A DNA stretch of 64,000 nt, taken from the NCBI GenBank assembly GCA_030041335.1, contig JASHOB010000003.1:1-64000 (forward strand). Reading direction: 5' to 3'. The notes beneath the pieces are model-generated. The model was not told the DNA's origin, made no database searches, and worked only from the letters and a program-made list of their open reading frames with translations. This stretch comes from Alphaproteobacteria bacterium (GTDB lineage: Bacteria; Pseudomonadota; Alphaproteobacteria; ATCC43930; CGMCC-115725). Position numbers and translations under genes: made by a program. Each line of letters opens with the position of its first letter. Within the stretch, counting starts at the first letter, position 1. Below are positions 50,033-60,567 of this stretch, piece by piece.

Positions 50033-50809
50033 TCATGCAAGCCCCACCAGCGCTTTTACCCGCGGCCAGGCTTCACGCCCCTTTTCCTCCATAAGCGGAA
50101 GGTATTTCGGATTGAACTGCGCGGCGAGCGCGGCGCGATAGGTCTCGCGCGAGCGCATGCGCTCGTACCAAGCGGCGGTGCGCGGGTTCTTGTCGAGGAA
50201 ACCCAGGAATTTCAGATGATCGAGGCGCGTTATGTATGGGGCGTAGGCGATGTCGGCCAAAGTGAACATCTCGCCGGTCAGCCATGGCCCGCGCTCCAGC
50301 GCCACATTCATATCATTGATCATCTTGTAGAGGCGCTTGATCGCGTCGGAAAAATTCGGATTGTCGGTGCCCTTCTGCAGCAGTGCGAAACGTGCGCGAT
50401 AGCCGGGCCCACGCTGGCGTGTCAGCTCATCGAGCACCTCGGGCGTGTATTGATGATGGAAGGCCACACTCATGCTGACCGTGCCGGTTGCAGGGAATAT
50501 CGAATCGTCGATCTGCTTGGTCCACCAGCGCATTTTGGCGCGTTCCGCAGGATCGACCGGCTTCAGCGGGTGTTTCGGATAGGCGTCGTCGAGATATTCG
50601 TTGATGACGACAGACTCCGTGACCACTACATCGTCATCGACCAGCGTCGGCACTACGCCTTTGGGATTGAGCGTCAAGTACTCGGGCTTTTGCTGATCGC
50701 CGGCGCGTAGGTTGAGATGCTTCGCCTCATGGGCGAGCGCCTTCTCAGCAAGGCAAAGGCGGACCTTTTGCGAGCAGACCGACATGTCGTTGTGATAGAG
50801 CGTCAGCAT
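50033..50809 (-). CDS. Glutathione S-transferase family protein
   Basis: A 258-residue GST. The thioredoxin-like domain starts MLTLYHNDMSVCSQKVRLCL; Ser or Cys near residues 10-12 are the candidate catalytic residues, and the glutathione-binding cis-Pro and Glu-Ser pair are in GVVPTLVDDDVVVTESVVIN. The alpha-helical domain carries the N-capping motif GEMFTLADIAYAPY. An 85-residue long insertion between the domains fits the beta-etherase/dehalogenase-like subgroup. Strong GAGAGGAA ribosome site. Related copies occur at 52155 and 56710. Confidence 0.88.
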   Translation of the reverse strand: MLTLYHNDMSVCSQKVRLCLAEKALAHEAKHLNLRAGDQQKPEYLTLNPKGVVPTLVDDDVVVTESVVINEYLDDAYPKHPLKPVDPAERAKMRWWTKQIDDSIFPATGTVSMSVAFHHQYTPEVLDELTRQRGPGYRARFALLQKGTDNPNFSDAIKRLYKMINDMNVALERGPWLTGEMFTLADIAYAPYITRLDHLKFLGFLDKNPRTAAWYERMRSRETYRAALAAQFNPKYLPLMEEKGREAWPRVKALVGLA

Positions 50810-50943
50810 CGTATTCCTCTCTCCTCGCCGGTTGCGGGATCGACTTGACATGGCGGCCAGGCGCCGCGACGATGGTTACGCATCAGCTCGAAAAGCTGCG
50901 GCGCCACGAATTTACACAGCGTCGCTTGAAACTCGGCCGCGCC

Positions 50944-51516
50944 TTAACCTGCTGCCACCAATCGGCGAGATGTAGCCGCTTCTCGGTCCGGAGCCGAGAG
51001 CTGCTCCGTGTCAAGACGGTGCGCTTGGCAAGCGAGACGCCGTGGCCTGCGACCCAAAGCGTGGTTGCGAGCTATGCCTCCATATCGCCGAGCGAATTGT
51101 CGTAGACCCGCAGCGCCACGTCGCCTCCGGACCCTCGATGCGGCGTCGAATTGTGGCGACGTCGCGCTTTCGACCTCCGCACCGAGCCACTCGGTCCAGG
51201 TCAGCATGGTCAATCGACCGAGCCGCGCGGCGGCATTGAGCGGCGGCTCGGGAAACGCATCGTCAATATATTCGCCGATGACCGTCAATTCGAGGATGCC
51301 ATTCCCGTCATGGACCAGCGTCCGCACGACGCGTTTCGAATGGAGCATCAGGTATTCCGCCGCGAATTGTCCGCTCTTCAAAAGGTCGACTTGCGCGGCC
51401 CAGGGCCAGCCCTTTTCGCCAGGCCGATCCGCGCCTTGGCGGCGTGGACCGAGGTGACACGGCTTGCGCATCTGTTCCTCCCATCTTCGCTGCAACCATG
51501 CGCAACAGTTAATCAT
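50944..51516 (-). pseudogene. Glutathione S-transferase pseudogene
   Basis: The frame shows a damaged GST thioredoxin domain: QVDLLKSGQFAAEYLMLHSK, VVRTLVHDGNGILELTVIGE and YIDDAFPEPPLNAA. The N-terminal active-site segment is scrambled and everything after about residue 115 loses the family pattern and turns Arg/Ala rich. It is a decayed copy beside intact GST genes. Confidence 0.65.
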
Positions 51517-52093
51517 CGAGACAGCGCAGCATTACTCGCTTGACGTCGTGCAAGGCCGTGCGATCGGGCTTCGCTTTGCCGACAAGCCGCAAACCCTGGA
51601 TACTCGCCGTCAGAAACCGCGCCAGCACGGTGGTGTCGGCATCAACCCGTAATTCGCCGCGCGCCCGCGCCGCATCGAGCGCGGCGCGGAAAGAGGCTTC
51701 GTTGCGCTCAAGAGCGCGGCGCACCACGGCCATCGCCTCGCGATCGCCGCGCGCGAGTTCGGCGGCGCAATTGCCGATGAAGCAGCCGCGCCGTCCGTGA
51801 CCGGCGACGATCGCGGTGACGAACTCATCGATGAGCAACGCTAGGGCTTTGCGGATCGGTTTGGCGCTCGCCAGGGTCTCGGCGATCCGGCCGCTGCCGC
51901 GCTCTGCATAGTGCTCCAGCGCGCGCAGCAGCAGCGCGCGCTTGTCGCCGAAAGCGCCATAGACGCTCGAGCGACTGAGCGCCATCGCGTCGCAAAGCTC
52001 GTCGAGGGAGGTTCCCTCGTAGCCTTTCGACCAGAAAACCTCTATCGCGCGCTCGAGCGCGGCGTCGGCATCGAATTGACGAGGGCGGGGCAT
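51509..52093 (-). CDS. TetR family transcriptional regulator
   Basis: A 194-residue regulator with an N-terminal helix-turn-helix: RPRQFDADAALERAIEVFWS, YEGTSLDELCDAMALSRSSV and YGAFGDKRALLLRALEHY. The C-terminal domain (CFIGNCAAELARGDREAMAV) belongs to the TetR_C_16/YjdC-like group, often linked to stress or detoxification genes. It is divergent to a GST gene, with a perfect palindrome in the 61-base gap, so it should repress both. It overlaps the GST pseudogene tail by eight bases. Confidence 0.9.
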   Translation of the reverse strand: MPRPRQFDADAALERAIEVFWSKGYEGTSLDELCDAMALSRSSVYGAFGDKRALLLRALEHYAERGSGRIAETLASAKPIRKALALLIDEFVTAIVAGHGRRGCFIGNCAAELARGDREAMAVVRRALERNEASFRAALDAARARGELRVDADTTVLARFLTASIQGLRLVGKAKPDRTALHDVKRVMLRCLDD

Positions 52094-52119
52094 GTTTCAA
52101 CTGTACCGCTGCCGTATTA

Positions 52120-52135
52120 TGGACTAGATAGTCCA
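52120..52135. promoter_or_regulatory. TetR operator palindrome
   Basis: TGGACTA-GA-TAGTCCA is a perfect inverted repeat in the gap between the TetR gene and the divergent GST gene, typical of TetR binding sites. It lies 27 bases before the TetR start and 20 before the GST start. Confidence 0.75.
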
Positions 52136-52154
52136 AAATAACACGGAGAATGCC

Positions 52155-52889
52155 ATGGCTGACAAGCTCGAGCTCTATCACGCTGGCCTCAGCAGCTGCT
52201 CGAAGAAATCACGGCTCTGCCTCAAGGAGAAGGGCCTGCCCTACAGGAGCCATTTCGTGGCCTTAAACAAGTTCGAGCATCACGATCCCGCTTATCTGAA
52301 GCTCAACCCCAATGGCCTGGTGCCGACGCTGGTTCATAACGGCACGGTGATCATCGAATCCGGCGTAATCAACGAATATCTCGACGAAGTCTTTCCTGAG
52401 AAGCCGCTGCGGCCGTCGGATCCGGTGGCGCGCGCTGGCATGCGCGTCTTCTGCAAAATGGCCGATGAGTACGGGCTGCCGGCGACACGCATCCCAACTT
52501 GGACCCGCACCAAACAGGCGCAGCTCAAGGAGATGAGCGCGGCCGAGTTCGACAAGGTCGTCGCCGAGACGCCGCTGGTCGACCATCGCCTGAAGCTTCA
52601 AGCATTGAAGGGCGAGGGCTTCACCAAGAAGGAATTCGACGAGGCCTATGGCAAGATGGATTACATCTTTGCTCGCTGTGAGACGGCGCTGTTAAACGGG
52701 CCGTGGCTCGCGGGCGAGATGTACACCCTCGCCGATATCGCAATCCTGCCCTACATCTTCGCCTTCAGTGAAGTCCGTCCCGAGTTGATGCAAGGCCATA
52801 CTCGCACGGCCGATTGGTACGCGCGCATCATGGCGCGGCCCGCAGTCAAGGCGACCTACGAGCCGTCGGCCGAGACCGCCGCGGCTTAA
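52155..52889 (+). CDS. Glutathione S-transferase family protein
   Basis: A 244-residue GST of the same type as the copy at 50033-50809. The N-terminus LELYHAGLSSCSKKSRLCLK carries Ser/Cys candidates, GLVPTLVHNGTVIIESGVIN binds glutathione and GEMYTLADIAILPYIFAF is the helical-domain motif. The gene is divergent to the TetR regulator with the palindrome between, suggesting induction by a toxic or aromatic compound. GGAGAATGCC precedes the ATG. A terminator hairpin follows. Confidence 0.9.
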   Translation: MADKLELYHAGLSSCSKKSRLCLKEKGLPYRSHFVALNKFEHHDPAYLKLNPNGLVPTLVHNGTVIIESGVINEYLDEVFPEKPLRPSDPVARAGMRVFCKMADEYGLPATRIPTWTRTKQAQLKEMSAAEFDKVVAETPLVDHRLKLQALKGEGFTKKEFDEAYGKMDYIFARCETALLNGPWLAGEMYTLADIAILPYIFAFSEVRPELMQGHTRTADWYARIMARPAVKATYEPSAETAAA

Positions 52890-52898
52890 TCCGCGCCG

Positions 52899-52921
52899 GC
52901 TAATTTTCGCCGGCACTTTTC
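52899..52921 (+). terminator. Possible terminator after GST gene
   Basis: GCCGGC-TAATTTTC-GCCGGC can form a 6-bp GC stem and is followed by ACTTTTC, a short T-run. The remaining bases to 53262 hold no supported gene. Confidence 0.45.
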
Positions 52922-53262
52922 GGCCTGCCCCGTGTTTGGCTGCTTTGACCTGTTACTAGAGCACTACCTCCCAGAGCGACGCGCGGTGACCCTCAATTTC
53001 ATAGGTGGGGGCGCTGCCTCAGAGCCCTAATGTGTCGCCCAGCCGAGCGGCGTCGACAGCCGTCCTTCAAGCTGCAATTCGGCGGGAAGTGGATCTCAAT
53101 GTCGAGAGCGCTATTCTCCGACATCTTGCTGCGATCTTGCCACGACAATTGCCCTCAAATAACCACGACTCAATACTGCGCTGACGGCCGATCCCACGCC
53201 CTGGTAACTCTTGCACTGCTTTCGAGCCCGCTCTTGGACGTGAAGCAGCGTTCACGGCCTGA

Positions 53263-53505
53263 TCAGGCGGAGTAATACAGGAGCAGCATCGACGCATGGT
53301 CAGCGGAAGGCGCGAAGCGGTCATGGTTGGGCAATGTAGGAGGTCTCGGATCGAAGCTGACCCACTCTGCCAGAAACCGCAACCAACGGGCATCATCCCC
53401 AGTGACGTGTTCCTGGTGCGCCTTCGCCCGCCGGGTTGCATCGATTGCCGAGGTCCGGATTGTGTCGACGCATGGGCGGTTGAGTTCCCTGCCGTTCATG
53501 CACAT
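53263..53505 (-). CDS. Hypothetical protein, 80 aa
   Basis: The frame starts at ATG 53505 inside the last codons of the glycosidase gene, a 10-base overlap. It encodes RTSAIDATRRAKAHQEHVTG followed by DDARWLRFLAEWVSFDP, a composition that looks coding. No known domain. Co-translation with the glycosidase is likely if the gene is real. Confidence 0.4.
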   Translation of the reverse strand: MCMNGRELNRPCVDTIRTSAIDATRRAKAHQEHVTGDDARWLRFLAEWVSFDPRPPTLPNHDRFAPSADHASMLLLYYSA

Positions 53506-56219
53506 TCCGAGTGTCGTGGGGGAGCTACCGACGAGTGGGTGATTGAAAGACCGCCCGGCACGCCCGGATCGCGGGGATGGAGAAGCAGGGCGATGAGCCC
53601 GCTCCAGCCGGTCTGGTGCGATGCGCCGAGACCGGCGCCGGACTCCCCGTGGTAGTACTCGTGGAACAGCAGGCGATCTTGAAAGTCAGGGTCACGCTGC
53701 AGCAATGGGGTAGCCCCCAGCGACGGGCGACGACCATCATCTCCAGCCAGATAAAGTGATGCCAGCCGGTCGGATAGATCATTGGCGGCTTCCGCCAGTG
53801 ACCTTGCGCGACCGGATCCAACAGGGCAAGGGACCCTAAAGCTATCGCCGTAGTAGCGATGAAATTCGTGAAGTGATTCGATCAATAGATAGTTTATCGG
53901 CAACCAGACCGGACCACGCCAATTCGAATTTCCTCCAAAAAGGTCTGACGTGGACTCGCCGGGTTCGTAGTCGATGCGATACTCCATGCCCTGATACGAA
54001 AAGACGAAAGGACATTCCGAGTGCCGCTTCGAAAGCGATCTCACCCCGTGGGCGGAGAGAAATTCAGTTTCATCCAAAGCTCGCCGCAACAGGGTCTTCA
54101 GGCGATGGCCGCGCAATAGCGACAACAGGAGCTGTTCGCCCTCGTTTGGCTCCTGCCAACGCGAGATCAAACGCGCTAAGTCGGACCGGTGCTCAACAAA
54201 CCAGCGCGCATGGCGCGCGAAGTCGGGTAACTGCCCAAGGATCTGGTCGGCGAGAACCTGGACCGCGAACATGGGAATGAGGCCTACGACCGACCGTGCC
54301 TTCAGTGGTAGCCGGCTACCGTCAGGCAAGTTGAGCACGTCATAGTAAAATTCGTCAGCCTCGTCCCAGAGACCGCTCCCCTCGCCGCTGACATGCTCCA
54401 TGGCCTCGGCGATGAACAGGAAATGCTCAAAGAACTTCAGTGCAATGTCTTCATAAACGTGGTCATGGAGCGCAAGCTCGAGCGCGATCCGCAGCAGATC
54501 CAGCGTATACATCGCCATCCAAGCGGTTCCGTCGGACTGGCTGATGAAGCCGCCCGTCGGTAATGGCTTCGAGCGGTCGAAAATGCCGATGTTGTCTAGT
54601 CCGAGAAAGCCACCCTGGAAGACGTTGCGGCCGCCGGCATCCTGACGGTTCACCCACCAGGTAAAATTCAAGAGCAGTTTGTTGAAGACTCGCTTCAGGA
54701 AGGCGACATCGCCCTCGCCCTTGTGCGCCTTATCGATTTGGTAGACACGCCAGGCGGCATGGGCCTGGACCGGTGGATTGACATCGTCGAGCGCCCACTC
54801 ATACGCCGGTAGTTGGCCGTTAGGATGCATGTACCATTCACGCATCAGCAGAAGCATTTGCGACTTGGCAAATTCAGGGTCGATCAGCGCAAACGTGATG
54901 CAGTGAAAACTGAGGTCCCATGAGGCATACCATGGAAACTCCCAGGTATCCGGCATCGATATCACGTCGTAATTTCTCAGATGCTGCCAACCTGCATTCC
55001 GCCCCTTAAGCCGCTCGACTGGCGGTGCCGGTTGGCCCGGATCGCCCTTGAGCCAAGTTGCAACATCGAAATAGTAGAACTGTTTCGACCATAGCATTCC
55101 GGCAAAAGCGGCGCGTTGAACCAGGCGACGATCAGGATCGACGATGTCCTTTTGCAGTACCGCATAGAACTCGTCCGCGTCTGCGAGCCGGGTCTCGAAG
55201 ATTCGGTCGAACGCCGCAAAAGCGTTCCCCTGCGTCTCGGCTGGAGCCAAACGCAGGCGGATCGTGACGCTTCCTCCGGCCTCAAGCTTCAGACGGTAGA
55301 GGAAAGCACATTTGCTTCCTTCCGGCTTGGCGCTGACGGCGTGCTTATCGCCGCGCACAATGTAGTCGTTGATGCCGTCCTTGAAGCAGCCCTCAATTTT
55401 AAGGCTGCTCAAACGACGATGATTTGTTTCGTTCTCGCAGAACAGGAGTTGGGGTGAACCGTCTGCAGTCAATTTAAGCGCACGAAACAAAGGATGCAGG
55501 GTCTCGACACAACCGTCCGAATGACGCCGAATGCGGGGACGCGGCGTCTCGAGGGTCCAGCTCCATGTGTTGCGCGCCCAGAACTGCGGTAGAAGGTGCA
55601 ATGAGGCTTCGTCCGGGCCACAGTTGACCACGCTGACTCGCATCAACGTCTCGTCTGGGCCCTCCTTCGCATATTCAACAGTTACGTTGAAATAACGACC
55701 TTCATCGAACACGCCAGTGTCATAGAGTTCGAACTCAGGATCTTTGCGAGTACGTGAGAGGTTCTCAGAGACAAGCCGCGAGTATGGGAATTCGGCTTGC
55801 GGATATTTGTACAGCATCCGCATATAAGAATGAGTGGGCGTGCCGTCCTCAAAGTACCAAAGCTCTTTTGCGTCCTCGCCATGATTTCCTTCCTTGTTGG
55901 TCAGACCGAAGAGACGCTCTTTTAGAATCGGATCGCGACCGTTCCAAAGGGCGATACCGAGGCACCACCTCAAGTGATCGTCGCTCCAACCGGCAATAGC
56001 GTCCTCGCCCCAGCGATAGGCACGGCTACGGGCGTGATCGTGTGGAAAAAATTCCCAGGCCGAACCTTCGGGGCTGTAGTCCTCGCGCACCGTTCCCCAC
56101 TGCCGCATGCTCACGTAAGGGCCCCAACGCCGCCACGGTTCGCCTTTTTCGATAGCCATAAGGCGGCGGCCCTCCGCTGTGTCAAATATGCCGCGCGGTC
56201 CAGGGATCGCCTTCGGCAT
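53496..56219 (-). CDS. GH63/MGH1-like glycoside hydrolase, 907 aa
   Basis: A large soluble protein with the (alpha/alpha)6-barrel segments of GH63 and mannosylglycerate-hydrolase-like enzymes: WEFPWYASWDLSFHCITFAL, MHPNGQLPAYEWALDDVNPP, GGFLGLDNIGIFDRS, and GGNSNWRGPVWLPINYLLIE. The N-terminal 300 residues are strand-rich and likely form a beta-sandwich. It would remove glucose or mannose from an alpha-linked glycoside. No signal peptide, so cytoplasmic. The start codon ATG 56219 (or GTG 56222) has no good ribosome site. It is not in an evident pathway. Confidence 0.82.
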   Translation of the reverse strand: MPKAIPGPRGIFDTAEGRRLMAIEKGEPWRRWGPYVSMRQWGTVREDYSPEGSAWEFFPHDHARSRAYRWGEDAIAGWSDDHLRWCLGIALWNGRDPILKERLFGLTNKEGNHGEDAKELWYFEDGTPTHSYMRMLYKYPQAEFPYSRLVSENLSRTRKDPEFELYDTGVFDEGRYFNVTVEYAKEGPDETLMRVSVVNCGPDEASLHLLPQFWARNTWSWTLETPRPRIRRHSDGCVETLHPLFRALKLTADGSPQLLFCENETNHRRLSSLKIEGCFKDGINDYIVRGDKHAVSAKPEGSKCAFLYRLKLEAGGSVTIRLRLAPAETQGNAFAAFDRIFETRLADADEFYAVLQKDIVDPDRRLVQRAAFAGMLWSKQFYYFDVATWLKGDPGQPAPPVERLKGRNAGWQHLRNYDVISMPDTWEFPWYASWDLSFHCITFALIDPEFAKSQMLLLMREWYMHPNGQLPAYEWALDDVNPPVQAHAAWRVYQIDKAHKGEGDVAFLKRVFNKLLLNFTWWVNRQDAGGRNVFQGGFLGLDNIGIFDRSKPLPTGGFISQSDGTAWMAMYTLDLLRIALELALHDHVYEDIALKFFEHFLFIAEAMEHVSGEGSGLWDEADEFYYDVLNLPDGSRLPLKARSVVGLIPMFAVQVLADQILGQLPDFARHARWFVEHRSDLARLISRWQEPNEGEQLLLSLLRGHRLKTLLRRALDETEFLSAHGVRSLSKRHSECPFVFSYQGMEYRIDYEPGESTSDLFGGNSNWRGPVWLPINYLLIESLHEFHRYYGDSFRVPCPVGSGRARSLAEAANDLSDRLASLYLAGDDGRRPSLGATPLLQRDPDFQDRLLFHEYYHGESGAGLGASHQTGWSGLIALLLHPRDPGVPGGLSITHSSVAPPRHSECA

Positions 56220-56709
56220 CACTTGTCAGTCGCGAACGACAACGCTATCGAGGGCGAATAGGGGATGCATCCGGAGGTTCACCCAGCGACCAAGCGTAGA
56301 ATGGCCAGCAACCCAGCGTGTGCGGCGGATCTCCATCGGCGACCTCCGAGACATGGCCGACATAGATTCGCATCCTCGACCCACATCGCCACACTCATTC
56401 AACTGGCTCAGCCTTGGCTACAAAGTACCTAGGCGCTCGAACGATAGGACAGCCTAGCACGCCGGTCCAGAACTCAATCATGCTTTCCATAACGCCTGTG
56501 ACTAACACGAAATGATGCGCGCTTCGTCATTGTGTAACAACGTACCGCATCACACCGTCGCGCGACACTCCGCGTTGAGCAAAATTTTCGTGTGCGTGCT
56601 GCAGGCGTTAGCGAGCGGCCAGACTGCCTGCGGAAAAGTGGGGTTGCCCGTGGGCTTATGCCGTGGCATCGGCATCCACGCGCCCAGAAAAAAAAGAGCA
56701 CTCCCAATT
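56220..56709. other. Intergenic region
   Basis: The 490 bases between two leftward genes hold no convincing coding frame. The promoter of the glycosidase is presumably at the left end. I see no repeat or hairpin worth naming. Confidence 0.45.
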
Positions 56710-57543
56710 TCAATAATGACTCGCGCCGAAATCGTTAACTCTGTAATCCGCTAAATTTTCGCGAAGGGCATCCTTGATCGTGAGCCCGCCGCTTCGCATC
56801 TCCTCCCATTCGTTCGGATTTATCCATTTGACGACTTCGTCCGCAAAAGACGACCGCCCTTTGAGTCGCTCGAACCATGCCGTGCTGAATGGCCGTTCCA
56901 CCAACCATATATCGATGACATTGACGTATTCGAGCCGCGCGAGATAGGGCGCGAGATTGACCTCCGCAAGTGTGAACTGATCGCCGCATAGCCAGCGCCG
57001 TCTATCGTTGAGAACGCTTTCGATCTTCTGAAATAGTTTCTCGAGCGCGGCCACACCGCGATAGACATGAGGCGCTCGGACGCCGTGGGCATGGATGGTG
57101 GTATAGCGATCGCGTCGTTCGAGATCGACGACTTTGCTCAGATGTTCCGCGAGTTCTGCCGGCGACATGCGACGCAGTCGGTCCATGAACATCGCGGCGA
57201 AGCTTATCACGCCGATGGCCTGATGTACGCCCTCGTCGCACGCCTTCGAGTAAAGCCGCATCTCTGCCCGCGCAAACGGATCAGTGGGCTTCAACGCCGG
57301 TCCGTCGAAGCGATCGTCGATATATTCGGCGATCAAGGTAGATTCAGTTATGATCTTACCGTCATCGACCAGTGTCGGCACCACCGCCTTGGGATTGAGC
57401 TTCAAATATTCCGATTTGAACTGGTCGCCCTTGAACAAATCGACCTGACGGCTCTCCCAGTCTCTCACACCCTTTTCATTCAGGGCGAGCCGAACCTTCT
57501 CCGAGCAGGCTGAATTGCCAAAATGGTACAACGTCACGGGCAT
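56710..57543 (-). CDS. Glutathione S-transferase family protein
   Basis: A 277-residue GST. MPVTLYHFGNSACSEKVRLA is the start of the thioredoxin domain with Ser/Cys in the catalytic position, AVVPTLVDDGKIITESTLIA binds glutathione, and the helical domain carries WLCGDQFTLAEVNLAPYLAR. It is longer than the other copies, with a 60-residue region before the helical motif. The start ATG 57543 follows GGTGGAGG. It is divergent to the second TetR regulator across a 437-base gap. Confidence 0.88.
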   Translation of the reverse strand: MPVTLYHFGNSACSEKVRLALNEKGVRDWESRQVDLFKGDQFKSEYLKLNPKAVVPTLVDDGKIITESTLIAEYIDDRFDGPALKPTDPFARAEMRLYSKACDEGVHQAIGVISFAAMFMDRLRRMSPAELAEHLSKVVDLERRDRYTTIHAHGVRAPHVYRGVAALEKLFQKIESVLNDRRRWLCGDQFTLAEVNLAPYLARLEYVNVIDIWLVERPFSTAWFERLKGRSSFADEVVKWINPNEWEEMRSGGLTIKDALRENLADYRVNDFGASHY

Positions 57544-57980
57544 TCGATTCCTCCACCGGTTGCGGTTTCTTGATGACCACGGCAGCCGTAATTCCGACGC
57601 GGCATGGCGGCGTCTGTCGCCCCTCGTTAAATTTCGAGAATTTTTGCGATCTCGGGCCACGAACGCTTGGCTCACGGCCTAATCATGCCACGGGTCGTGG
57701 GCCAGGGTCTCACGGATGGAAACGTAATCTCCGGCGATGGTATGGTGCTCATGCGCCCGTGGCGTTTGGCAATGACCGTGAGATACACGCCGAACGACCG
57801 ACTTACAGCAACTAGGCATCGATTACAGTGCTCAAGGATGTTGCAGGCAAAAAAAGAATGGGGCCTCAAGGGTGGGCCAGGGGCTCGGCTTGCCGTTCTG
57901 ACTCAATCGATCTAAAACTTTTTCTCGCGAGATCATAAAACATAAGGGGTGCCGTTCGTGGTGACCGACGCGAGGAATTG
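57544..57980. other. GST-TetR divergent intergenic region
   Basis: This region must hold promoters for both the leftward GST gene and the rightward TetR gene. Near its right end, 57906-57918 reads ATCGATCTAAAAC, closely matching half of the palindrome at 58570-58591. The GAGGAA ribosome site of the TetR gene is at its end. Confidence 0.5.
57906..57918. promoter_or_regulatory. TetR operator half-site upstream of the TetR gene
   Basis: ATCGATCTAAAAC here corresponds to ATCGCTCTAAAAC in the palindrome downstream of the TetR gene. Its reverse complement begins GTTTTAGATCGAT. The second half is not clearly preserved. It lies about 63 bases before the TetR start, suggesting autoregulation. Confidence 0.45.
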
Positions 57981-58565
57981 ATGGCGCGACCAAGAGAGTT
58001 CGATGAGACAGCGGTGCTGCAAGCCGCGATGAACCGCTTTTGGGCGCAGGGGTTCGAGCAGACCTCAGTGCGTGATCTCGCCGAGCAGATGGGGATCACC
58101 GGCGCCAGTCTCTACAACGCGTTTGGAGACAAGCGATCGCTGTACCGTCAGGCCTTCATTTACTACCTCGCCGAGAGCGTGCGGGATCGTGTTGCGCGGC
58201 TCGAGAAGCTGCCGCCGGCCTTGGCGATCCGGACATTTTTCGACGAGATTATTGAGCGGTCAATCAACGACGAGCAGCGCCGCGGCTGCATGCTGGTTAA
58301 TGCGGCCCTGGAACTGGCTCCTTACGATCCCGAAATTCAGAAGCTCGTTGCCCAGGAGCTGATCTTTATCGAGGCTTTCTTTCGCCGCTGCATCGGCGCG
58401 GCGCAGAAAGACGGTTCGATCACAGACACTCGTCCCGCGGACGAACTCGCTAAACTGCTACTGAGTGTGCTGCTCGGCATCCGTGTCCTGGCGCGCACGC
58501 GCCCGCAACGCAAAGTGCTGAAAGGGGCTGCCAACGGGGTTTTGGCGCTTCTCGCCAGCGCCTGA
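57981..58565 (+). CDS. TetR family transcriptional regulator
   Basis: A 194-residue TetR protein. The helix-turn-helix reads RPREFDETAVLQAAMNRFWA, FEQTSVRDLAEQMGITGASL and YNAFGDKRSLYRQAF. The C-terminal domain carries RRGCMLVNAALELAPYDPEI, as in the regulator at 51509-52093, so the two are related. ATG 57981 follows GAGGAA. It reads in the same direction as the selenoprotein gene, whose promoter region holds the shared TTTTAGA palindrome, and is divergent to a GST, so both are likely targets. Confidence 0.88.
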   Translation: MARPREFDETAVLQAAMNRFWAQGFEQTSVRDLAEQMGITGASLYNAFGDKRSLYRQAFIYYLAESVRDRVARLEKLPPALAIRTFFDEIIERSINDEQRRGCMLVNAALELAPYDPEIQKLVAQELIFIEAFFRRCIGAAQKDGSITDTRPADELAKLLLSVLLGIRVLARTRPQRKVLKGAANGVLALLASA

Positions 58566-58591: not shown

Positions 58592-58655
58592 CATGTGATA
58601 AGCTGCTCCCGACTGAGGCGAACCATCGCCACGACCTGATGCGAGGAGAGGCTCG

Positions 58656-59864
58656 GTGACCAGACTCACCGACTTGCCGCCGGGTCAGGCAAAACGCCTG
58701 GCGGAGCTCGAATGCCCAGACTTTGAAACGCGGCCTTGGGTGACCGGTGCGGCGCTGTCGCGGTGCCGGGTTGCGATCGTTTCGTCGGCAGGGCTGGTCG
58801 TACGAAGCGACAACCCGTTTCGCGGCCGCGATCCCGATTACCGCAGGATCCCCATTACGACGAAGAAGAACGAGCTGCTCTGCAGCCACATCTCGATCAA
58901 TTTCGACCGCACGGGGTTTCAGGAAGACTGGAATGTCGTCTTCCCGCTCGACCGGTTGAACGAGCTGGCGGCGGAAACGGTGATCGGCTCAGTGGCCGCG
59001 ACACATTATTCGTTCATGGGAGCGACCGATCCGGTGCAGATGGAGCCCCATGCGCGCGAACTGGCCGGGCGGCTGAAGGCAGACGCGGTCGACGCGGTTG
59101 TTCTTACTCCCGTTTGACCGCTCTGCACGCGCGCCGTGAGCGCGCTCGGGCATTACCTGGAGGAAGAGGGCATCGCGACGGTGGCGATTGCGTTAATACG
59201 GGCACAGGCAGAGAACACCAAGCCTCCGCGTGCGTTGTGGGTGCCGTTCGAACTTGGCCGTCCGCTCGGGCCGCCGAACGACGCGGCGTTTCAAAGGCGT
59301 GTGCTGCTTGCCGCGCTCAACATGCTGGTAGGAGATGGCGGGCCGGTCCGCATCATCGATTTTCCAGAGGACGATCCGCGCTCGCAGCCGGACCCAGCCT
59401 GGCAGCCGCCGTTCATGCCGGGGGCGCTGGTCGATGGCGCGGTGGCGTCACTGGCCTCCCGATTGGAAGCGGAAATCTTGCTGTTCCACGGCGCGCACCA
59501 GCGTTGGATGGCCCAATACGAGCGCAGCACGGTCGGACTGAGCGGTCTGGCGATTGTCGAGGCCGCCCGCTACGTTGCCGACTGGCTGCGCGGCAAGGCG
59601 CCGGCGAGTCCCCGCGACGGGTTCTCGCCGCCACTCATCCTCCGCTTCGCAGTCGACGATCTGAAGGCCTATTGCCTCGAAGCGGCGGGCGCCGGAACCG
59701 CGAAACCGTCAAGCCGTCAGCTGGGCGACTGGCTGTGGAACGAGACGGCGACCGGCGCGGCGCTCTACGCCTTGCGCGACCTGCTACTAACCCAGGAAGA
59801 CGACAGGCTGCGACTGATCGTCGCCAATTTCATAGTACCGGCCGCAAGGGCGCGTACCGGGTGA
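58656..59864 (+). CDS. Probable selenoprotein, GrdB/PrdB-like reductase family
   Basis: Read through the in-frame UGA at 59115-59117, this is one protein of 402 residues with selenocysteine at 154. The first part holds GAALSRCRVAIVSSAGLVVR, SHISINFDRTGFQEDWNVVF and SFMGATDPVQM; the second begins ALGHYLEEEGIATVAIALIR and PPRALWVPFELGRPLGPPND. These together match the glycine/sarcosine/betaine/D-proline reductase selenoprotein B family, in which the redox site is UxxC; here it is Sec154-Pro-Leu-Cys157. A SECIS-like hairpin starts 11 bases after UGA. GTG 58656 follows GAGGAGAGG. The HAD gene follows after 7 bases. Alternative: a nonsense mutation or two separate genes. Confidence 0.78.
59129..59145 (+). 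other. SECIS-like hairpin after UGA
   Basis: GCGCGC (59129-59134), loop CGTGA, GCGCGC (59140-59145) form a perfect 6-bp stem. The loop contains GU, and the stem begins 11 bases after the UGA, matching the spacing and loop requirement of the bacterial SelB-binding element. Confidence 0.65.
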
Positions 59865-59871
59865 GGAGTTC

Positions 59872-60567
59872 ATGAAGGACGTAAAGGTTCTCGCCATCGA
59901 TACCGGTGGCACGGTTCTCGACTGGCATTCCGGCTTGACCGCCGCAATGGCGGCGTGGGGCGCCGCCCAAGGCGTCGACCGCGACTGGCATGCGCTGGCG
60001 AACGAGCATCGCCGCCGCTCGCTGCGACGGATGACAAACGCGGTCGAACCCGGCTTCAATATCGACGACGTACACCGGGAGGTCGTCACTGAATTGTTCG
60101 ACCAGAACAATCTCGGGGGTTCTGCAGAGGAGCGGCGGGGAATTGCAGAGCGCTGGCACCGGCTTGACGCGTGGCCGGATTTTGCTCGGGCGCTGCGCCG
60201 GTTGCGGCAGCACCGCATTTGCGTCTCGTTCACAATCCTCAGCCTGTCCCTGGTCATCGATGTCTCACGTCACAACGGCATCGATTGGGATGCCGTGATC
60301 CCATGTGAGATGCTGCGTGTTTACAAGCCGCTTCCCGACGCCTATCGGCGCGCCGCCGCGTTTCTTGCCGTTGAGCCGCACCAAATCCTGATGGTGGCGT
60401 GCCACAATTTCGACCTTGATGCGGCGCGCGGTGTCGGCTATCGCACCGCCTTCGTGCGGCGACCAGAAGAATGGGGACCCGCCCGCCCTCCGGATCCCCT
60501 GCCGAACCCGGCCACCGACATCGTCGTCGACGGGTTTGCGGAACTCGCCGACCACTTTGATGCCTAA
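59872..60567 (+). CDS. Haloacid dehalogenase, type II (HAD)
   Basis: A 231-residue HAD protein of the L-2-haloacid dehalogenase type. The nucleophile Asp10 lies in VLAIDTGGTVLDWHSG, motif III Lys is in RVYKPLPDAYRRAAAF, and motif IV reads MVACHNFDLDAARGVGYRTA. The usual SLSNG motif II appears as FTILSLSLVI and lacks the Asn, so the substrate may not be a simple haloacid. It starts 7 bases after the selenoprotein stop with GAGGAG upstream, so the two are co-transcribed and probably act on the same compound. Confidence 0.82.
   Translation: MKDVKVLAIDTGGTVLDWHSGLTAAMAAWGAAQGVDRDWHALANEHRRRSLRRMTNAVEPGFNIDDVHREVVTELFDQNNLGGSAEERRGIAERWHRLDAWPDFARALRRLRQHRICVSFTILSLSLVIDVSRHNGIDWDAVIPCEMLRVYKPLPDAYRRAAAFLAVEPHQILMVACHNFDLDAARGVGYRTAFVRRPEEWGPARPPDPLPNPATDIVVDGFAELADHFDA

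Follow-up and report, generated by a model that had tools for sequence, protein, structure and literature searches.

A GrdB/PrdB-like selenoprotein with an added C-terminal domain in an alphaproteobacterium, most likely a stand-alone reductase

Results

The Gene and Its Reading Frame

The stretch of DNA analyzed here, called the window, comprises 64,000 nucleotides of Alphaproteobacteria bacterium (assembly GCA_030041335.1, contig JASHOB010000003.1, positions 1 to 64,000, forward strand). Its gene at 58656-59864 on the forward strand is preceded by the ribosome-binding-like sequence GAGGAGAG (58643-58650, forward strand), starts with GTG at 58656, meets an in-frame TGA at 59115-59117 and then stays open to the TGA stop at 59862-59864. 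Read through the internal codon, it yields 402 residues with the motif V-U-P-L-C, in which U is selenocysteine (Sec) 154. We conclude, practically without reservation, that 58656-59864 encodes one selenoprotein with Sec at the UGA. The sequence-only reading of this DNA had joined two frames of the same register into one 402-residue protein and placed the UGA at a UxxC position (Sec-Pro-Leu-Cys); translation through the codon bore out both points. Because a 379-amino-acid open reading frame (ORF) overlaps the gene in another frame, an open frame alone is little proof here, and the conclusion is carried by conservation, by a stem-loop behind the UGA and by the decoding machinery of the genome.

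Conservation of the UGA Codon

In a collection of named genomes, 263 stretches encode a relative of the protein. The best 80 (44-80% identity) were kept. Selection rested on score and on conserved peptides in other parts of the protein and took no account of the UGA; keeping the best-scoring 80 of 263 may underrate cysteine (Cys) forms. TGA occupies the Sec codon in 80/80 of them, which puts the Sec reading beyond chance. Nor does the protein stop at the UGA in these homologues, which span several phyla and groups (Alphaproteobacteria, Desulfobacterota, Chloroflexota and others): in 78/80 the frame stays open for at least 234 more residues, and conservation is strong on both sides of the codon. 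Of the other two, one (L143) is open for 220 residues up to the contig end, and the other (L109) breaks 73 residues after the Sec codon (L109:2125 onwards) with the remainder apparently in another frame, an apparent frameshift that may reflect assembly error or decay.

Two further searches gave the same picture for the long form, as we call the protein with its C-terminal part. The order search, over 43 genomes, gave 12 long-form loci (the window's own included; 65-100% identity; two fragments left out), each with exactly one in-frame TGA. In the class, 385 genomes were drawn and 50 matched; the long-form matches (E ≤ 5.5e-86) comprise 33 rows with TGA, two of which (G301 and G076) show a second stop read through, and three without a stop. 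The latter (G178, G388 and G184) read C-P-N-C in single uninterrupted frames through the C-terminal domain and form one clade nested among the Sec rows (support 100/100 in a tree of 86 rows). The earlier proposal of a probable Sec-containing protein is thus supported by the conserved TGA and the uninterrupted Cys homologues, together with the machinery described below. As a separate observation, at three loci a tandem second Sec copy of the long form lies directly downstream of the first (L104:7690, L126:7691 and L141:7690). Two copies (L082 and L083) are also present in Afipia sp. 1NLS2, a cultured relative.

Some features of the window speak against read-through and for the UGA being an ordinary stop, a frame-breaking mutation or an error, with a pseudogene or two genes at the locus. 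An in-frame GTG occurs at 59136, soon after the UGA and inside the hairpin; another, at 59181, is the 22nd codon after the UGA and has GAGG upstream; and the hairpin is not unusually stable. The sequence-only reading had held that the downstream part has no start or ribosome site of its own. This held approximately, given the two GTG codons, but neither start nor site is conserved across 81 sequences (the 80 loci and the window): GTG is found at the first restart place in only 58/81, and in only 8/81, the window included, is a start in frame, at most 40 codons on, preceded by a Shine-Dalgarno-like match. Restart downstream of the UGA was rejected on these counts. Since the TGA also holds the same codon in all 80 relatives across phyla, with strong conservation on both sides, uninterrupted Cys homologues and linkage to the Sec machinery, we give the ordinary-stop explanation practically no chance.

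The Stem-Loop Downstream of the UGA

The loops of bacterial selenocysteine insertion sequence (SECIS) elements bear GU. In the window, a stem-loop of this kind, GCGCGC-CGUGA-GCGCGC, occupies 59129-59145 of the forward strand, just 3' of the UGA as in bacterial selenoproteins. Its stem runs from 59129 to 59134 and from 59140 to 59145, the loop CGTGA lies at 59135-59139 with the GU at 59136-59137, and 11 bases separate the UGA from the stem, so that the perfect hairpin proposed earlier was confirmed to the base. The loop GT is invariant in 80/80 named loci, and 5 or 6 of the 6 stem pairs form in 78/80. At codons +4, +5, +6, +8 and +9 the third-position entropy amounts to just 0.17-0.29 bits. The loop codon has 1.18, and the remaining codons between -12 and +23, leaving aside the UGA, have 0.90-1.96; judging from the alignment, the stem is constrained at synonymous sites. 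In an alignment of 79 of the 80 named loci and the window, 90.5% of cells pair, more than in any slid version. A SECIS model run against the window's own genome scored the window site at 64.9 bits and the next best at 18.0, and only the window site was convincing. The weaker matches L168, L169, L170 and L179, when read through, gave no selenoprotein; 12 other weaker matches exist.

Several observations weigh against the hairpin as a SECIS element. Compensating changes are few, with three pairs changed on both sides in only four cells, and stem pair 17-29 is unpaired in 40/79 distinct sequences. Folding energy was rejected as evidence, as two folds of the window hairpin did not exceed shuffled sequence in stability (z = +1.16 and +0.66); this measure is of no use here because the GC-rich background folds equally well. 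One long Cys copy (L152) still forms 5/6 stem pairs. In the window, no Rfam model matched at its gathering threshold. Taken together, the three long-form Cys copies keep 5, 2 and 4 of the 6 pairs; since the hairpin is weakened in Cys copies, its structure appears to track Sec more than the peptide, with single Cys copies keeping much of the stem.

A short PrdB-like paralogue found in the same order (28-37% identity to the long form, U/C-P-V-C, about 290-350 residues) ends soon after the PrdB-like domain, unlike the long form. Nine of its 17 fetched copies carry Sec and eight carry Cys; one further TGA copy lies outside the 17. The Sec copies have the same CGTGA loop as the long form on a stem, CCAGAC/GTCTGG, of different bases in the same register, that is, with compensating bases relative to the long-form stem, and 5-6 pairs form in 9/9 of them. 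In the eight Cys copies 2-5 pairs remain, and one of the eight retains the GT loop. The window's genome also has a Cys short paralogue (G000:C82, L044), whose hairpin is weakened and lacks the GT loop.

Selenocysteine Machinery

The genome of the window (G000; a 5.17 Mb draft in 262 contigs, rated 100% complete) contains selA, selB, selD and tRNA-Sec. On contig C233, tRNA-Sec with anticodon UCA (76.4 bits), SelA (567.5 bits) and SelD (422 bits) lie close together, tRNA-Sec adjoining selA, and SelB is on contig C164 (428 bits). The selenoprotein gene and selA are on different contigs. A different arrangement, tRNA-Sec genes inside selB, is known in Alphaproteobacteria from the accessible part of one report (PMC8124441).

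Across the class search, SelA scored above its cut-off in 29/30 genomes with a long-form TGA copy and in 0/3 with a long-form Cys copy (Fisher p = 7e-4, for genomes that are not independent). Hence the long form combines a conserved UGA with Cys in Sec-lacking genomes, as members of the SECIS/SelB-dependent selenoproteins do. The exception, which counts against this linkage, is G304 (L160), with a long-form TGA copy and no SelA match. Its completeness is rated at 100% and the gene lies on a contig of 6 kb; this contig may be a contaminant, or another may be missing from the assembly. Among genomes having only the short paralogue, SelA was present in 6/8 with TGA (not in G353 and G053) and in 0/6 without a stop, a comparison that omits G342, G112 and G374, where the match holds TAA or TAG and SelA is absent.

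Linkage is also physical. Of the 29 genomes that have SelA and a long-form TGA copy, 12 place selA no more than 20 kb from the gene, as compared to about 0.3 expected by random placement, and in two genomes the distance is only 133-134 bases. A sel gene is a near neighbour in 10/80 named loci (SelD in six, SelA in four, SelB in three; confirmed with curated models); a further SelB copy in L118 is cut by the contig end and falls below its cut-off. In three loci (L099, L117 and L118) of marine-looking Alphaproteobacteria, an ArsM-like methyltransferase gene upstream of selD has an in-frame TGA of its own (...LWTS-U-IA.GLPCAGW...), forming an apparent operon methyltransferase(Sec)-SelD-PrdB-like(Sec); the methyltransferase family was tested in L118 only.

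Decoding of the UGA as some other residue by a changed code is similarly next to impossible in our estimate. We found no point in its support, and it is contradicted by the full Sec machinery, by the SECIS stem-loop and by the three long-form genomes that lack SelA, which have Cys at this position.

Family Placement and Partner Subunits

The N-terminal part, about residues 1-241 (58656-59378, forward strand), is a GrdB/PrdB-like domain according to profile matches. PF07355 matched residues 17-151 with 47.2 bits against a gathering threshold of 22, and it was found in 48/48 members scanned (E ≤ 1). TIGR04483 (PrdB) matched residues 33-224 with 111.5 bits (E = 4.3e-32), short of its cut-off of 300, and no NCBIfam model, TIGR01918, TIGR01917, NF040794 and NF040795 included, reached its cut-off on the window protein. 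The same five profiles, TIGR04483 among them, matched 48/48 members, scores being set against cut-offs for the first member only. Over residues 34-237 the protein is 35% identical to Peptoclostridium acidaminophilum PrdB, with Sec154 on the Sec codon, the in-frame TGA of prdB. In a plasmid search 24 records matched, none over 80% of the query, and 15 of the 20 matches listed are annotated as PrdB. The GrdB/PrdB-like assignment of the sequence-only reading therefore stands at superfamily level, where PF07355 and the aligned Sec make membership all but certain from sequence comparison; it goes no further, as every NCBIfam score is below its cut-off.

The relationship to the characterized enzymes is partial. 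Clostridial PrdB, of D-proline reductase, shares the aligned Sec codon and the UxxC motif; the PrdB used for comparison, 237 residues long, stops where the shared domain does, whereas the window protein continues. Kinship to GrdB/GrdF/GrdH extends over about residues 16-222, but only the C-terminal half of those profiles (431-435 positions) matches; the accessible literature places a UxxC Sec site in that family too. The partners were not found either. The prdA gene adjoins prdB in L166, whereas PF09338, the GrdE/PrdA family, was found in 0/20 genomes searched (the window's own, 16 other Sec and three Cys genomes), both clostridial control records giving a match. PF04723 (GrdA), likewise a partner in glycine/sarcosine/betaine reductase, was found in 0/6 genomes; control W02 matched and control W01, a prdA/prdB plasmid, did not. 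A functional D-proline or glycine reductase subunit would agree with the PrdB profile E-value and the aligned Sec. Scores below the cut-offs and the lack of a GrdE/PrdA-family match in 20 genomes argue against it, as do the lack of a GrdA match in six and the extra C-terminal domain, and we regard this identity as highly improbable.

Predicted Structure and the C-Terminal Domain

The whole predicted model has a predicted local distance difference test score (pLDDT) of 91.1 and a predicted template modelling score (pTM) of 0.91. It gives the N-terminal domain an alpha/beta architecture in which U154 follows strand 147-151 and stands just before helix 155-170. Residues 246-402 (59391-59861, forward strand) form a conserved, predicted helical C-terminal domain, all helices also when modelled alone (pLDDT 92.8, pTM 0.89). 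No Pfam family was found for these residues in the window protein; elsewhere, one or two members per family matched at chance level. A sequence search of the PDB returned 0 matches for the whole family up to E 10; for the C-terminal domain it returned four, the best at E 0.024 over 27 residues, which we rejected as not credible. Foldseek gave none at E ≤ 0.001 for the whole model or the C-terminal domain. With VIA-align, residues 32-243 matched Rossmann-like and periplasmic-binding/LacI-like chains, generic folds, with a best Z of 8.6, and the thioredoxin fold was not among the 50 matches listed for the model. Since the C-terminal domain matched nothing beyond Z 4.3, its fold is not assigned, nor is there proof of novelty. 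Beyond UxxC, the residues H78, D84, R85, E199, R202, R290, D335 and W359 are invariant.

Gene Neighbours

Just upstream, at 57978-58565 on the forward strand, profile matches indicate a TetR-family regulator. Of the 11 other long-form loci in the order, four have a TetR gene 59-79% identical to it upstream, on the gene's strand in three cases and divergent in L049. The window contains two related TetR-type genes (51509-52093 and 57978-58565), and several glutathione S-transferase (GST)-like ORFs lie close together in 50033-58565, of which one (56713-57675) was tested with Pfam.

Seven bases downstream, at 59872-60567 on the forward strand and probably in the same operon, is a gene of the type II haloacid dehalogenase (HAD) kind. 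The window, L073, L130, L132 and L140 all have such a gene directly behind the selenoprotein gene, in the same orientation. Against the TIGR01428 cut-off of 125.4 bits, L132 (158.6) and L140 (155.9) pass and the window (121.5), L073 (119.8) and L130 (118.7) fall just short. These five loci represent three separate branches of the tree, which hints at alpha-substituted acids as substrates.

The case for such substrates is weakened on several counts. The downstream HAD gene occurs at only 2/12 long-form order loci and 4/80 named loci. The pattern was recognized in hindsight, and the model used for scanning was derived from the same five genes. In L080 and L083 HAD genes lie further off, 2.4 and 4.2 kb downstream. 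The other neighbours (CoA-transferase, 2-hydroxyacid dehydrogenase, SelD, ArsM-like methyltransferase and DUF1638) point in no single direction. A weak antisense HAD match was also seen in L120.

A coenzyme A (CoA)-transferase gene directly precedes the selenoprotein gene in seven loci, six of which have a 2-hydroxyacid dehydrogenase gene after it; one further locus has the dehydrogenase alone. Pfam confirmed one CoA-transferase and one dehydrogenase. Such enzymes act on acids, some of them C2-substituted, in a pattern that was picked afterwards and that most loci lack. In four loci (L093, L094, L095 and L100), a divergent BMP-type ATP-binding cassette transporter stands beside the CoA-transferase, PrdB-like selenoprotein and 2-hydroxyacid dehydrogenase genes, and a unit for uptake and breakdown is possible there. 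A DUF1638-type protein is encoded immediately upstream of the selenoprotein gene in two loci (L111:1610-2194, tested with Pfam, and L116:3275-3859). An oxidoreductase of the CmcJ/NvfI family adjoins a long-form gene at L077:4862-5683 and occurs on two contigs with short-form genes (L060:2089-2922 and L063:6847-7677).

Discussion

Sec decoding, kinship with the superfamily, the added domain and the lack of a partner-family match in the genomes searched are what the computation shows. The best overall explanation is a true selenoprotein that, in our judgment, likely works as a stand-alone reductase; by analogy with the known superfamily, its activity would fairly probably be the selenol-dependent reduction of a small molecule. 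The genome's tRNA-Sec, SelA, SelB and SelD would decode the UGA at 59115-59117 under the stem-loop at 59129-59145. In the GrdB/PrdB-type alpha/beta domain, the U154 selenol at the helix start would be the reactive group, with C157 as the likely resolving partner. The selenolate would attack the substrate and release the leaving group, C157 would resolve the selenium-bound intermediate, and a cellular dithiol would regenerate the enzyme, all by analogy with known members.

The most serious competitor accepts Sec and makes the protein a thiol-disulfide or peroxide-detoxifying redox protein acting under electrophile stress, rather than a reductase cleaving a C-X bond. The UxxC motif at a helix start, the TetR regulator and GST-like gene close by in the window and the mixed neighbours would suit it. 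Superfamily relatives of known role are substrate reductases; the best fold matches are the Rossmann-like and periplasmic-binding/LacI-like chains, and the eight invariant residues beyond UxxC suggest a substrate site. We therefore find the redox-protein role rather unlikely and continue to prefer the stand-alone reductase.

As to its substrate, the pyruvoyl subunit that binds amines in glycine and D-proline reductases was not found, so an amino acid held as a Schiff base is probably not the target. Our best guess is a carboxylic acid whose alpha carbon bears a leaving group, for example a 2-halo acid; this substrate class is weakly supported, and alpha-substituted (halo) acids as the actual substrates are a doubtful proposition. 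The broadest version is equally speculative: a widespread family of stand-alone reductases, nearly Sec-only and free of a pyruvoyl partner, would occur in oxygen-respiring bacteria as well and would reductively remove a substituent such as a halogen from the alpha carbon of organic acids, with the C-terminal helical domain standing in for GrdE/PrdA in substrate binding. Three haem-copper oxidase (COX1) matches in the window's genome agree with the aerobic-type locus suggested earlier.

PrdB selenoproteins with UxxC are already known; the long form adds the C-terminal domain, with no pyruvoyl partner found. According to the accessible text of a 2005 report, UxxC "PrdB" selenoproteins are abundant in seawater, with 42 Sec and one Cys sequence from the Sargasso Sea (PMC1088965), and a table in the accessible part of the Global Ocean Sampling survey gives 235 Sec and 110 Cys forms with pfam07355 (PMC2398784). 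These share the UxxC of the protein studied here and, in our inference, made without comparing sequences, probably include the long-form family. In their accessible portions both accounts speak of "proline reductase PrdB" with no mention of a C-terminal domain, neighbours or a missing PrdA. Similarly, as far as the available text goes, a 2006 survey lists proline reductase in Anaeromyxobacter and a Geobacter (PMC1794560), and reviews list PrdB as D-proline reductase (PMC9312934, PMC13188914). No account of the long form, of its added domain or of the genes around it was found in the open-licence PMC literature, which does not prove absence from print. A related protein is FarB of Cloacibacillus porcorum MFA1, a GrdB-like Sec protein which, in the accessible part of the report, is proposed to cleave fluoroacetate with FarE (PMC10838667). 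That C-F cleavage would take place at an alpha carbon; for the window protein, the neighbouring type II HAD genes are all that points to such a reaction. FarB is paired with a GrdE homologue, FarE, in an anaerobe, whereas the window protein has no such partner match.

Ordinary annotation would divide genes of this kind at the UGA. Its frequent position close to the Sec machinery suggests that the gene may be one reason why those genomes keep selenocysteine. If substrate reduction without a pyruvoyl partner is true, GrdB/PrdB chemistry would be separated from amino-acid fermentation, and the family would offer a testable selenoenzyme for C-X cleavage in aerobes.
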